From a virus: a DNA stretch of 28,351 nucleotides. The translations under genes were made by a program, and so were the position numbers. Where the stretch lies: the IMG/VR virus record IMGVR_UViG_3300022921_000075, positions 1 to 28,351 of that record. One strand, written 5' to 3'. The notes below the pieces were generated by a model, which was not told the origin of the DNA, ran no database searches, and saw only the letters and a list, made by a program, of their open reading frames with translations. This document shows, piece after piece, positions 10,800 to 28,216 of this stretch (positions within the stretch are counted from its first letter, which is position 1; every line of letters starts with the position of its first letter).

Positions 10800-10823
10800 G
10801 GTACGGATACATTAGAATTCACG
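10800..10823 (+). repeat. 24-bp direct repeat displayed in a hairpin loop, copy 1
   Basis: An exact 24-bp sequence beginning GGTACGGATACA and ending GAATTCACG is found here and at 10895-10918. This copy lies in the loop of a helix formed by 10787-10796 and 10824-10832 (nine pairs with one bulged G). The loop contains the self-complementary GAATTC. Confidence 0.8.
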
Positions 10824-10894
10824 ACCGCATCGACATCAACGCCGACGATAGTAGGTTCCCTGACGGCCTCGGCCGAACGGACAGAGGCGTTTTA

Positions 10895-10918
10895 GGTACG
10901 GATACATTAGAATTCACG
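10895..10918 (+). repeat. 24-bp direct repeat displayed in a hairpin loop, copy 2
   Basis: Exact copy of 10800-10823. It too is enclosed by a helix, GCGTT 10887-10891 with AACGC 10924-10928, although the flanking sequence differs. The same loop is thus held by two different stems. Confidence 0.8.
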
Positions 10919-11097
10919 GCCACAACGCACAAATGTCATACGGGATACTGAACGGAAAAACGAAATACGCCCCTCGAGGCCTCGATTGGATGAGTGCTTA
11001 ATGAACCCCTAACGGATACCTTCATTGCGCCGGGCGGCCAAGGACGCCCATAGCAATCACCTCCGTCAATGGATAGTAGATTTTGACCCCTACCACA

Positions 11098-11422: not shown

Positions 11423-11767
11423 ATGAATTTTGTAGTGAAATTGAGTAGCAAGAAAACGAATAAAACTTGCAAGTTCATCTTCCGCCCCGCCGATGGTGTT
11501 AACCCCGAACAATTTATCAAGAGCGGTTCTTTCCGCTCTGATTATGATTGGAGAGTGTACGATAATCGCAAGGCCTTCCTGAATGATTTGTGGAAATTGG
11601 CTATCGAAGCCGGTAACCCTATCGAGTATGTCAAGGTGAATGAAAGATTGAATTGGGAGCGCACTTCCCTTTGGGACAAGACCCGCTTTCCAAACGCGGA
11701 AGAGTTTAACAATCACATCTTGGATGGCCGGTTGTTAGTAAAGGAATTGGTTCAGGTCAATTACTAA
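11423..11767 (+). CDS. Unknown protein, 114 aa
   Basis: A mixed alpha/beta protein starting MNFVVKLSSKKTNKTCKFIF, with aromatic and charged segments (DYDWRVYDNRKAFLNDLWKL and NWERTSLWDKTRF). No motif is recognised. It lies 18 bp after the 67-aa gene and is the last gene before the first hammerhead ribozyme, which begins three bases after its stop codon. After ribozyme cleavage its mRNA would end in the two ribozyme hairpins. Confidence 0.65.
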   Translation: MNFVVKLSSKKTNKTCKFIFRPADGVNPEQFIKSGSFRSDYDWRVYDNRKAFLNDLWKLAIEAGNPIEYVKVNERLNWERTSLWDKTRFPNAEEFNNHILDGRLLVKELVQVNY

Positions 11768-11770
11768 TCA

Positions 11771-11824
11771 GGTTCGCTGATGAGGATTTAATATCCGAAA
11801 CATCCCTTCGGGGATGTCCGAATC
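11771..11824 (+). ncRNA. Type I hammerhead ribozyme 1
   Basis: The 54 nt have every hammerhead part. Stem I is GGTTCG/CGAATC (one G-U). The core CTGATGA spans 11777-11783. Stem II is GGAT-TTAAT-ATCC, followed by GAA (11797-11799). Stem III is 7 bp closed by a C(UUCG)G tetraloop. The cleavage triplet is GUC at 11816-11818, so the cut falls between 11818 and 11819. Both ends lie in stem I (type I). It starts three bases after the stop of the 114-aa gene and ends 14 nt before the next start, so it would separate the two mRNAs. Confidence 0.92.
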
Positions 11825-13350: not shown

Positions 13351-13512
13351 ATGGAACTGAAGAACATCACGACCACAGACATCGAGCAAGTTCAAGACGC
13401 CCTCTATGAGGGCATTGAATATATCGCCAACATTTCAGACGAGCGATACGACAATCCCGTTGTTAAGCAACTACAATCCGCAATTGACACACTAAACTAT
13501 GTTTCCCTATGA
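13351..13512 (+). CDS. Unknown acidic helical protein, 53 aa
   Basis: A short acidic protein (MELKNITTTDIEQVQDALYE, then GIEYIANISDERYDNPVVKQ) predicted to be helical throughout. It starts nine bases after the previous stop behind an A-rich leader and overlaps the next gene by four bases (ATGA). No family is recognised. Confidence 0.55.
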   Translation: MELKNITTTDIEQVQDALYEGIEYIANISDERYDNPVVKQLQSAIDTLNYVSL

Positions 13513-13775
13513 GAACTTTCATCGCATCTACCCACGCCGAACTATATGTCATCGGCCAACCAATCATCCTCGACCTTATCGACGCCGTAGTCGACAACGA
13601 TTTGGCCGGGATTGATAAATGCAAGACCGACGCACAGGCCTTGATAATTCAGAACGCCGCCAAGCAAGGTAGTGTTCAGGTAGGCCTTGGGGCCTTTAAA
13701 AACTCCTTCTACAAAATCCTTGAGGAGGGAGGGTATTTCCCAAGCCTGACCCGGTTCGCCGGTGTTCAGTCATAA
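13509..13775 (+). CDS. Unknown protein, 88 aa
   Basis: The protein starts MRTFIASTHAELYVIGQPII, continues with a helical acidic segment and a Gly-rich centre (KQGSVQVGLGAFKNSFYKIL). No motif is recognised. The coding sequence near its end includes a perfect CCGG-TTCG-CCGG hairpin (13751-13762). Its stop codon directly abuts hammerhead ribozyme 2. Confidence 0.6.
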   Translation: MRTFIASTHAELYVIGQPIILDLIDAVVDNDLAGIDKCKTDAQALIIQNAAKQGSVQVGLGAFKNSFYKILEEGGYFPSLTRFAGVQS

Positions 13776-13829
13776 GATTTGCTGACGAGCCTTCAGTAGG
13801 CGAAACACCCCTACGGGGGTGTCCAAATC
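13776..13829 (+). ncRNA. Type I hammerhead ribozyme 2
   Basis: A 54-nt hammerhead. Stem I is GATTTG/CAAATC (perfect). The core CTGACGA spans 13782-13788. Stem II is GCCT-TCAGT-AGGC, followed by GAA (13802-13804). Stem III is 7 bp with a C(UACG)G tetraloop, and the GUC triplet is at 13821-13823. The cut falls between 13823 and 13824. It has the same architecture and length as ribozyme 1 with all stems changed, that is, compensatory changes. It starts at the base after the upstream stop codon. Confidence 0.93.
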
Positions 13830-13841
13830 AAAGTAAAACAC

Positions 13842-13874
13842 GAACCGCGCCCCGGCGCATAAACCCCCATAGAG
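13842..13874 (+). promoter_or_regulatory. Conserved leader hairpin before the 127-aa gene
   Basis: GAACC, hairpin GCGC-CCCG-GCGC (13847-13858), then ATAAACCCCC and the start codon at 13875. It matches the leader at 11164-11200 in flanks, hairpin position and the C run. It would lie 18 nt from the 5' end produced by ribozyme 2. Confidence 0.6.
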
Positions 13875-14258
13875 ATGGAGAATTTCTTCGCAACGAACGC
13901 AGAGTTGAGCGGCAAAATCAACAAGTTGAAGGCTATTCCTTTTCAACACGAGGTTGGTATCAAAGACGACAAGGGTCTCTACCTGTACAAGACCTTTGCC
14001 GACGCCTACAAATACAAGCCATACGCTGACGAGGCCTACGAGCCTTGGATGAGCGGAGTATGGATGGGTAAGCCCGGCACCGGAGCATACGCAATGATTG
14101 CACTTCATTGGGAGGATTTAGTGAAGGCCAAGCAATGGTTCTTGCACTACGAATTGGAGGCAATGAAAGGTAATGTTTGGTTTGTTGAGTACAACGCTCA
14201 AAAGGAATTCGGGCAGATGCCTACGGAGCGTAGTAAGGCACCGAATCCAAAGGTGTGA
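13875..14258 (+). CDS. Unknown aromatic-rich protein, 127 aa
   Basis: The protein is rich in Tyr and Trp (LYLYKTFADAYKYKPYADEA, then YEPWMSGVWMGKPGTGAYAM) and has a helical end (EDLVKAKQWFLHYELEAMKG). No family is recognised. It is the only gene between ribozymes 2 and 3, so cleavage at both would yield a monocistronic mRNA of about 490 nt with the conserved leader hairpin at its 5' end. A separately processed message suggests a need for independent dosage. Confidence 0.65.
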   Translation: MENFFATNAELSGKINKLKAIPFQHEVGIKDDKGLYLYKTFADAYKYKPYADEAYEPWMSGVWMGKPGTGAYAMIALHWEDLVKAKQWFLHYELEAMKGNVWFVEYNAQKEFGQMPTERSKAPNPKV

Positions 14259-14267
14259 TAGCGAACA

Positions 14268-14321
14268 GGCTTACTGATGAGGATTGATTATCCGAAACGC
14301 CCCGGTTGGGGCGTATAAGTC
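14268..14321 (+). ncRNA. Type I hammerhead ribozyme 3
   Basis: A 54-nt hammerhead. Stem I is GGCTTA/TAAGTC (one G-U). The core CTGATGA spans 14274-14280. Stem II is GGAT-TGATT-ATCC, followed by GAA (14294-14296). Stem III is 7 bp with a GGTT loop. The cleavage triplet is GUA at 14313-14315, still within the NUH rule, so the cut falls between 14315 and 14316. It starts nine bases after the upstream stop. It is slightly less canonical than the other two because of GUA and the non-UNCG loop. Confidence 0.9.
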
Positions 14322-14346: not shown

Positions 14347-14589
14347 ATGATAACTACCACAGGAAACATAGTATACTACAAGTTTGAATGCGACGATGAG
14401 AATCGTCCCACAGGTATGAAGGCAGATATGTTCTTCTCCTTGTTGGAACTCGACAAGGCCTTCGCTCTGAAGGAGGAATTGGATAGTAAACAAATCCAAT
14501 ACACATTCTTACTTGAGAAATTCAATAAACATAAAGCCGAAATAGTCGACCGAGATTATTTTGTTGACAACAATTCTTTTAACCAATAA
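14347..14589 (+). CDS. Unknown protein, 80 aa
   Basis: The ATG at 14347 (MITTTGNIVYYKFECDDENR) is chosen because the longer in-frame start at 14284 lies inside ribozyme 3. The protein has a beta N-terminus and a helical, charged remainder (FFSLLELDKAFALKEELDSK). No family is recognised. It is the first gene after ribozyme 3, with a leader of 31 nt after cleavage. Confidence 0.65.
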   Translation: MITTTGNIVYYKFECDDENRPTGMKADMFFSLLELDKAFALKEELDSKQIQYTFLLEKFNKHKAEIVDRDYFVDNNSFNQ

Positions 14590-14859: not shown

Positions 14860-15138
14860 ATGAACAACTACAAAGAACTGACCGACCTACTGGAAGAAAA
14901 AGGAATGTGGAACTATGGTTGGGCAAAGCCCGGTCAAATCTTCATCAACCAAGGTCGCCGATTGGCGGCTATTGTGGTCGGTGACACGACTGACTACAAT
15001 GTAGCCTACAAGATGCCCAACGGACGCATCTACGCAAAGAATGTTAAAGCCGAAGAGGCAGATAAAATCCTAACCATCGCAATGTACCTAAAGTTGGACG
15101 GCGATACAGGTGAAGTTGAAGGTGGCTTCGGCTTCTAA
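14860..15138 (+). CDS. Unknown protein, 92 aa
   Basis: The ATG at 14860 (MNNYKELTDLLEEKGMWNYG) follows AAAGAG and is preferred over one at 14833 inside the previous gene. The sequence is a helix followed by beta strands (GRRLAAIVVGDTTDYNVAYK) and a Gly-rich end. No family is recognised. Confidence 0.62.
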   Translation: MNNYKELTDLLEEKGMWNYGWAKPGQIFINQGRRLAAIVVGDTTDYNVAYKMPNGRIYAKNVKAEEADKILTIAMYLKLDGDTGEVEGGFGF

Positions 15139-15162
15139 TTATAACCAGTAAAACTTGAAACT

Positions 15163-15390
15163 ATGGATATTTCAAACCATTCAGTATTTGCAATTGTGTG
15201 CCGCCACTTCATTGGCGATGTGAATGAGGAAGTGCTCCTCGATATGGCCAACACACTTGCGCCATTCGCAGAGAGCCTTACGAAACTGCACGACACAGAG
15301 GAGCCACACATTGTGGCCGGTACCATCATTCACGACTACTGCGGCCTTTCAAAAGGTGACCCGCACTTCTTACCTCGTCTGACTAAATAA
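15163..15390 (+). CDS. Unknown helical protein, 75 aa
   Basis: A helical protein (MDISNHSVFAIVCRHFIGDV, then LLDMANTLAPFAESLTKLHD) with four His and two Cys spread along it (C13, H15, H42, H48, H57, C60), not in a recognised metal-binding spacing. No family is recognised. It has an A-rich leader typical of the operon. Confidence 0.6.
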   Translation: MDISNHSVFAIVCRHFIGDVNEEVLLDMANTLAPFAESLTKLHDTEEPHIVAGTIIHDYCGLSKGDPHFLPRLTK

Positions 15391-15681: not shown

Positions 15682-16236
15682 ATGGCTATTATCGCAACCG
15701 GAAACGAATACAAGGTGCAGTTCGGCACGATTCAAGAACTCGATGCCGTCCTCAAGATGGTAATCAAAGGAATCCCTGACGGATTCTTTGACTTCCAGTC
15801 GCAAGGGAATCAATTCTCTGCGCTCGACCTGAAGGTCGACCTGTCCTGTGACGCTGAACCTCCCGTGTTCTTGGATATGTTCTACAACGGACTAATCACG
15901 AACTACTTCGGGCAATACGACATATCGTTGGCCACGATGCAGTCAGATTACGACAAGGCCCGGGACAAGGTGATTGAAAAAAACCCCAACGCCTGTTGGG
16001 AGGATGTCTTGCTACAGGTATTGTCTGACGGCAACCTCGTCTTCGAAGACCACTACCAAGGGATGACGATTGAACTCAACCTGAATAGGGTAGGAAGTAA
16101 CTTCCTGAAGGCATTCAACGATGCCCCGGATTACTTTATGGAACTTGTTGTACTTCACGCCAACGGAGGGTCGGACGGAACCACCTACGACGCTTGGCTT
16201 CAAATGGGAACATACGGAGAGGTTATCTACGGATAG
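15682..16236 (+). CDS. Unknown acidic protein, 184 aa
   Basis: The largest product of the small-gene cluster. It is acidic, with alternating hydrophobic strands (MVIKGIPDGFFDFQSQGNQF, PVFLDMFYNGLITNYFGQYD) and helices. No motif is recognised. It is followed 14 bases later by three-way-junction element 2, and so ends an RNA-element-bounded block of six genes that begins after ribozyme 3. Confidence 0.65.
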   Translation: MAIIATGNEYKVQFGTIQELDAVLKMVIKGIPDGFFDFQSQGNQFSALDLKVDLSCDAEPPVFLDMFYNGLITNYFGQYDISLATMQSDYDKARDKVIEKNPNACWEDVLLQVLSDGNLVFEDHYQGMTIELNLNRVGSNFLKAFNDAPDYFMELVVLHANGGSDGTTYDAWLQMGTYGEVIYG

Positions 16237-16250
16237 TCCGCTATCATCAT

Positions 16251-16293
16251 CTGCCCTCACCTTCGGGGTGCGCCGGTTCGCGACCGGGGGCAG
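16251..16293 (+). ncRNA. Three-way-junction RNA element 2
   Basis: Closing stem CTGCCC/GGGCAG (16251-16256/16288-16293) encloses hairpin CACC-TTCGG-GGTG (16258-16270) and hairpin CCGGT-TCGCG-ACCGG (16273-16287). It shares CGCCGGTTCGYGACCG with the element at 11098-11145, while the other two stems differ but pair. Like the ribozymes it follows a stop codon by a few bases, and like them it is followed by a TCAAATA-type segment (16301-16307). No hammerhead core is present, and no T tract, so it is not a terminator. Confidence 0.7.
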
Positions 16294-16327
16294 AACTAAA
16301 TCAAATAAACCTCAAATCTTAACTATT

Positions 16328-28140: not shown

Positions 28141-28213
28141 GCCCCCGTAGCATAATGGATAGTGCAACGCACTTCTAATGCGTAGGCTACAGGTTCGAGT
28201 CCTGTCGGGGGTA
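28141..28213 (+). tRNA. tRNA-Arg (anticodon UCU)
   Basis: A full 73-nt cloverleaf: acceptor GCCCCCG/CGGGGGT (first pair G-U), D arm with GCAT/GTGC and a loop containing GG, anticodon stem ACGCA/TGCGT with loop CTTCTAA, 5-nt variable region AGGCT, T arm ACAGG/CCTGT with loop TTCGAGT, and discriminator A. CCA is not encoded. It reads AGA (and AGG) arginine codons, which are common in the AT-rich genes around it. Confidence 0.96.
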
Positions 28214-28216
28214 CGA

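Follow-up and report, generated by a model that had tools for sequence, protein, structure and literature searches.

Type I hammerhead ribozymes at gene junctions of tailed phages lie at the upstream stop codon and probably split polycistronic mRNA

Type I hammerhead ribozymes located at the operon junctions of tailed phages probably split polycistronic mRNA into pieces of one to three genes. The window analysed here, a virus record of 28,351 bases, contains three of these ribozymes, and their layout places the predicted cut downstream of the translated part of one gene and a short way ahead of the following gene. The structure of the ribozymes, the family to which they belong, the covariation of their stems and their strand, position and spacing are matters of observation. 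The rule found for the position of the stop codon, and a covariance model which recovers copies missed by Rfam, offer a concrete and testable picture of the role of hammerheads, especially as members of the class are present in cultured Pelagibacter and Flavobacterium phages, whose RNA ends can be mapped during infection.

The Phage and Its Three Hammerhead Copies

The window encodes a portal protein, a large terminase, GroES, thymidylate synthase, an Erf-type annealing protein, an exonuclease and a BT4734-like primase/DnaB helicase. A Bacteroidota host is likely for this phage, since the gene order GroES, Erf, exonuclease, primase/helicase, DUF1064 resembles that of Flavobacterium phage elemoB. 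A tRNA-Arg (UCU) gene occurs on the + strand close to the end of the window (28141-28214).

A strict scan of both strands for the three hammerhead topologies returned exactly three hammerheads, all on the + strand (Table 1), and none in 60 dinucleotide shuffles of the window. The three copies sit in a + strand block of small genes of unknown function, the 127-aa gene being the only one located between copies 2 and 3. Searching for proteins related to the ORF that precedes copy 1 yielded none.

Table 1. Coordinates of the hammerhead copies, of the parts of copy 2 and of the neighbouring open reading frames in the window.
Feature	Position	Strand	Remarks
ORF, 114 aa, before copy 1	11423-11767	+	
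Hammerhead copy 1, core CUGAUGA, triplet GUC	11771-11824	+	Predicted cleavage 11818/11819; 3 nt between UAA stop and stem I
ORF, 88 aa, function unknown, upstream of copy 2	13509-13775	+	Stop abuts copy 2; 91% aa identity in L122
Conserved unpaired A(-7) of the class	13775	+	Last base of the UAA stop in copy 2
Complete type I hammerhead ribozyme, copy 2	13776-13829	+	Strict scan, covariance model, MFE fold; predicted cleavage 13823/13824
Copy 2 stem I, 5' strand GAUUUG	13776-13781	+	Pairs with 13824-13829, 6 bp
Copy 2 catalytic core CUGACGA	13782-13788	+	
Copy 2 stem-loop II, GCCU-UCAGU-AGGC	13789-13801	+	13 nt; loop UCAGU (class consensus UNANU)
Copy 2 core GAA	13802-13804	+	
Copy 2 stem III, ACACCCC-UACG-GGGGUGU	13805-13822	+	UACG tetraloop; first pair A15.1-U16.1
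Copy 2 C17 of the GUC cleavage triplet	13823	+	
Copy 2 stem I, 3' strand CAAAUC	13824-13829	+	Start of predicted 5'-OH product
Predicted 5'-OH leader of the 127-aa gene	13824-13874	+	51 nt; would result from cleavage
Flank AAA	13830-13832	+	First two are class-conserved A(+7), A(+8)
ORF, 127 aa, function unknown, downstream of copy 2	13875-14258	+	80% aa identity in L001
Hammerhead copy 3, core CUGAUGA, triplet GUA	14268-14321	+	Predicted cleavage 14315/14316; 9 nt between UGA stop and stem I
ORF, 80 aa, after copy 3	14347-14589	+	Missing at the corresponding place in L122

Structural Organization of the Ribozymes

Copy 2 displays the core CUGANGA, the GAAA and a NUH triplet around three stems that define a hammerhead, and its stem I is open while stems II and III are closed by loops, which is the type I topology. 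By every one of these sequence and structure criteria 13776-13829 is a type I hammerhead, for which self-cleavage is predicted. The minimum-energy fold of 13773-13832 is exactly the hammerhead (-22.2 kcal/mol, z -3.8), as is that of each of the three copies when taken as 60-nt sequences. The GUA triplet of copy 3 is permitted by the NUH rule.

An earlier note on this DNA had described copy 2 as made of a perfect stem I, a GUC triplet, a CUGACGA core and a UACG-capped stem III; scan and fold confirm these parts and their coordinates. The ribozyme also begins right after the stop codon as announced, stem I starting on the base that follows the UAA, with the refinement that ribozyme and stop codon overlap by one base when A(-7) is counted as part of the ribozyme. 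The further claim that the stems differ in sequence from those of copies 1 and 3 with pairing retained holds for all three stems, except that all three copies share the outer G-C pair of stem I, the closing G-C pair of stem II and the two initial pairs of stem III. Differences between paralogous copies are in any case weaker evidence of covariation than differences between orthologues, and covariation proper comes from the wider family.

In this family, the layout consists of an open stem I of 6 bp with an unpaired A on either side, a 13-nt stem-loop II with the loop consensus UNANU, and a strong stem III. The GC content of stem III reaches 66%, versus 31% in the flanks, and its four-base loops are GNRA or UNCG in 85 of 110 cases. 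Among members with a 13-nt stem-loop II, A(-7) is conserved at 97-99% and A(+7) at 91-97% in two separate samples; the corresponding values are only 12-37% and 12-13% among members with a 12-nt stem-loop II. The association of the flanking As with the 13-nt element would fit a putative non-Watson-Crick contact of loop II with the end of stem I, which may substitute for the internal loop found in canonical type I ribozymes. No base covariation was seen between the stem I flanks and loop II. A Watson-Crick pseudoknot joining loop II to the flanks was also considered and was rejected, mutual information lending it no support.

Distribution of the Class Across Phages

Hundreds of similar ribozymes occur in phage contigs. 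Two patterns were used to find them, the first of which constrains the core and two stem II base pairs, leaves stems I and III free, and was run both on viral contigs and on genomes of bacteria and archaea. Among the matches listed, complete hammerheads were found at 97 of 124 viral places (85 of type I and 12 of type III) and at none of the 118 places in bacterial and archaeal genomes. With the second pattern, 113 of the 121 places among the viral matches listed were complete. These counts are lower bounds for the class in viral contigs. A chance origin of the motif is ruled out by the shuffles and by the viral versus genomic pattern counts.

A covariance model (R1) built from 29 members from other phages, none of them from the window, scores copies 1-3 at 55-58 bits (E about 1e-13) and also matches all three copies of the nearest relative, L122, as well as copies in the cultured phages HTVC019P (a Pelagibacter phage), HTVC131P and elemoB; no chance match of the seed pattern in a bacterial genome exceeds 20.6 bits. 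Across the family, 13 of the 16 base pairs have changed on both sides and 99% of the cells stay paired, and the core residues are all intact in copies 1-3 and in more than 200 relatives with diverged stems. The stems are accordingly kept by covariation in relatives, a point on which the earlier note had made its reading depend. The pattern result is nevertheless less biased evidence than this covariation, because the scanner used to select the 29 members demanded pairing. The model matched in none of 395 Bacteroidota genomes, in a scan limited to few candidates per genome and run with no positive control, and nowhere inside a weak hit in Vibrio phage Artemius. A blastn search of annotated phages with copy 2 alone gave weak matches only, of doubtful meaning.

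All of the copies lie on a single strand in each of the 23 multi-copy loci, with a median spacing of 620 nt and mostly one to three ORFs between copies. Other hammerheads occurring in phage contigs are of type I with a 12- or 15-17-nt element II (five copies in L048), or of type III; those other type I copies have a stop codon at their 5' edge in 30 of 32 cases.

Position Relative to Stop and Start Codons

The contact of copy 2 with a stop codon is the rule for phage type I hammerheads and not a quirk of this copy. The upstream ORF is clear for 131 type I hammerheads, a sample that includes related loci and is not fully independent. In 111 of them the stop of this ORF ends between -12 and +4 of the first base of the core, as compared to 11% for random positions and 10% for the antisense strand. 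A stop beyond +16 occurs in a single case (0.8%), versus 45% at random positions. Different parts of the ribozyme supply the stop: the UGA of the core (25/131), a UAG whose A is A(-7) and whose G opens stem I (20/131), a UAA ending stem I (18/131), or a UAA with A(-7) as its last A (12/131), the type to which copy 2 belongs. Downstream, the next ATG lies within 120 nt in 196 of 230 cases, at a median distance of 20 nt after the ribozyme.

In Flavobacterium phage elemoB (L242), the annotated CDS 15035-15331 begins within the ribozyme (14994-15057). This annotated start is probably wrong, because an ATG located 19 nt downstream of the ribozyme gives an 84-aa frame with the identical stop.

Turnover Among Related Phages

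The segment 13748-13885, including the orthologous copy 2, is identical in the window and L122, whereas the adjoining coding DNA differs by roughly 10-15%; this identity could result from constraint or from recent exchange. Copy 1 of L122 (7345-7398, corresponding to 11771-11824 in the window) has stem III and its loop in the version of copy 2 (CACCCC UACG GGGGUG), which suggests an exchange of sequence between copies. The window has one extra gene after copy 1 and another after copy 3. In addition, the segments 10800-10835 and 10895-10931 of the window each match the counterpart of the other in L122, which suggests a local repeat.

In two other related phages, L358 and L359, a hammerhead occurs directly at the stop of the gene that matches 15682-16236 of the window. 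The window has a different hairpin structure at the end of this gene, and the genes that follow differ in the window, L358 and L359. Ribozyme sites thus come and go at gene junctions. The structure in the window, a GC-rich branched hairpin (16237-16300; CUGCCC..CACC UUCG GGGUG..CCGG..CCGG..GGGCAG; -27.4 kcal/mol, z -2.2), directly follows the stop of this 184-aa gene, in the slot of the L358/L359 hammerhead. It has no match in Rfam, and is possibly another junction RNA element.

Possible Function

Cleavage by hammerheads generally leaves a 5'-OH end and a 2',3'-cyclic phosphate. Each copy would fold on the polycistronic mRNA and cut itself once. The upstream mRNA would then carry stem-loops II and III and a 2',3'-cyclic phosphate at its 3' end, a short distance past the stop codon, and the downstream mRNA would begin with a 5'-OH and a short leader, 51 nt long for copy 2, before its start codon. 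Copies 2 and 3 would jointly release the 127-aa gene as a single-gene mRNA. A stop codon placed at or inside the 5' edge of the ribozyme would keep the ribosomes of the upstream gene from crossing stem III and the cleavage site, and the cut may in turn affect mRNA stability or gene dosage. It counts against such splitting of mRNA that no particular junction needs a ribozyme, because related phages carry ribozymes at different junctions.

The position of the stop codon would also agree with cleavage gated by termination, in which an upstream ribosome stopping in stem I or the core masks the ribozyme and holds it unfolded until its departure triggers the cut that frees the mRNA of the next gene, so that cutting would report translation of the upstream gene. 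The stop lies inside or touches the 5' strand or the core in 85% of the testable cases, the 25 core UGAs included, and these embedded stop bases would fall within the footprint of a terminating ribosome. However, the packing of compact genomes yields a like layout, the next start being close too, and the idea that the upstream coding RNA sequesters the ribozyme, to which a single long fold of copy 2 had given rise, had to be abandoned: in a set of 100 cases, opening the ribozyme cost less than with shuffled upstream sequence, the coding sequence sequestering the ribozyme slightly less than its shuffled counterparts. Both the masking and the release by the departing ribosome appear unlikely.

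It is still less likely that the ribozymes act mainly as portable linkers, their core providing a short homology for the swapping of genes between phages, with cutting as a secondary property. The homology shared by the window, L358 and L359 does stop at the stop codon or the first ribozyme bases, a one-gene difference between the window and L122 follows directly on copies 1 and 3, and the phage carries an Erf-type annealing protein. Homology starts are about twice as common per site at ribozymes (33/262) as at other ORF ends (256/4214), an excess which is modest, pseudo-replicated and nearly absent for right-hand ends (25/262 versus 307/4214). A DNA linker, however, would work without the stem pairing, GUH triplets and tetraloops that compensatory change preserves here. 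That the element is an inactive relic which still folds, or simply a 3' hairpin of the mRNA, seems very improbable: stem III by itself would form a stable 3' hairpin, but copies 1-3 and more than 200 relatives whose stems have diverged all retain the complete core, and the whole block is identical in L122 despite the divergence of the flanking coding DNA. The splitting of polycistronic mRNA appears as the best explanation.

Comparison with Known Self-Cleaving Ribozymes

Rfam 15 detects no hammerhead in the window, even at E values up to 1, and no copy in the window or in 18 further loci reaches a gathering score. With the 111 bases around copy 2, the best match is RAGATH-1 (RF03152), at 26.0 bits for a gathering score of 56.3 and hence below threshold. 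Copy 2 and this model have the type I layout in common, but only positions 26-77 match and the aligned stem II of the model is much shorter. With Hammerhead_1 (RF00163) and the canonical type I ribozymes, the phage class has in common the open stem I topology and the core CUGANGA..GAAA..UH, but lacks the outer part of stem I with its internal loop.

Clustered hammerheads in prophages, and the idea that they process long RNAs, were published in 2011 (Perreault et al., PMC3088659); cleavage was shown there for three tandem arrangements, tandem hammerheads of prophages and bacteria being active in vitro and one set in E. coli. The window, in which several copies flank single phage genes or short blocks, contains a cluster of this type. 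The accessible text of the same paper describes neither the overlap with stop codons nor a compact class whose stem I is open, 6 bp long and flanked by As, although some of its hammerheads may belong to this class (PMC3088659). Judged from the open-access literature alone, in which no paper on hammerheads in pelagiphages was found, the clusters and the processing idea are already known, and the position rule relative to the stop codon is new. What hammerheads do in bacteria and phages has been described as an open question (PMC6155905). The HDV-like theta ribozymes of gut phages (PMC10879173) are self-cleaving and located in phage genomes as well, but they differ by their fold and are tied to tRNA-based recoding instead of gene ends.
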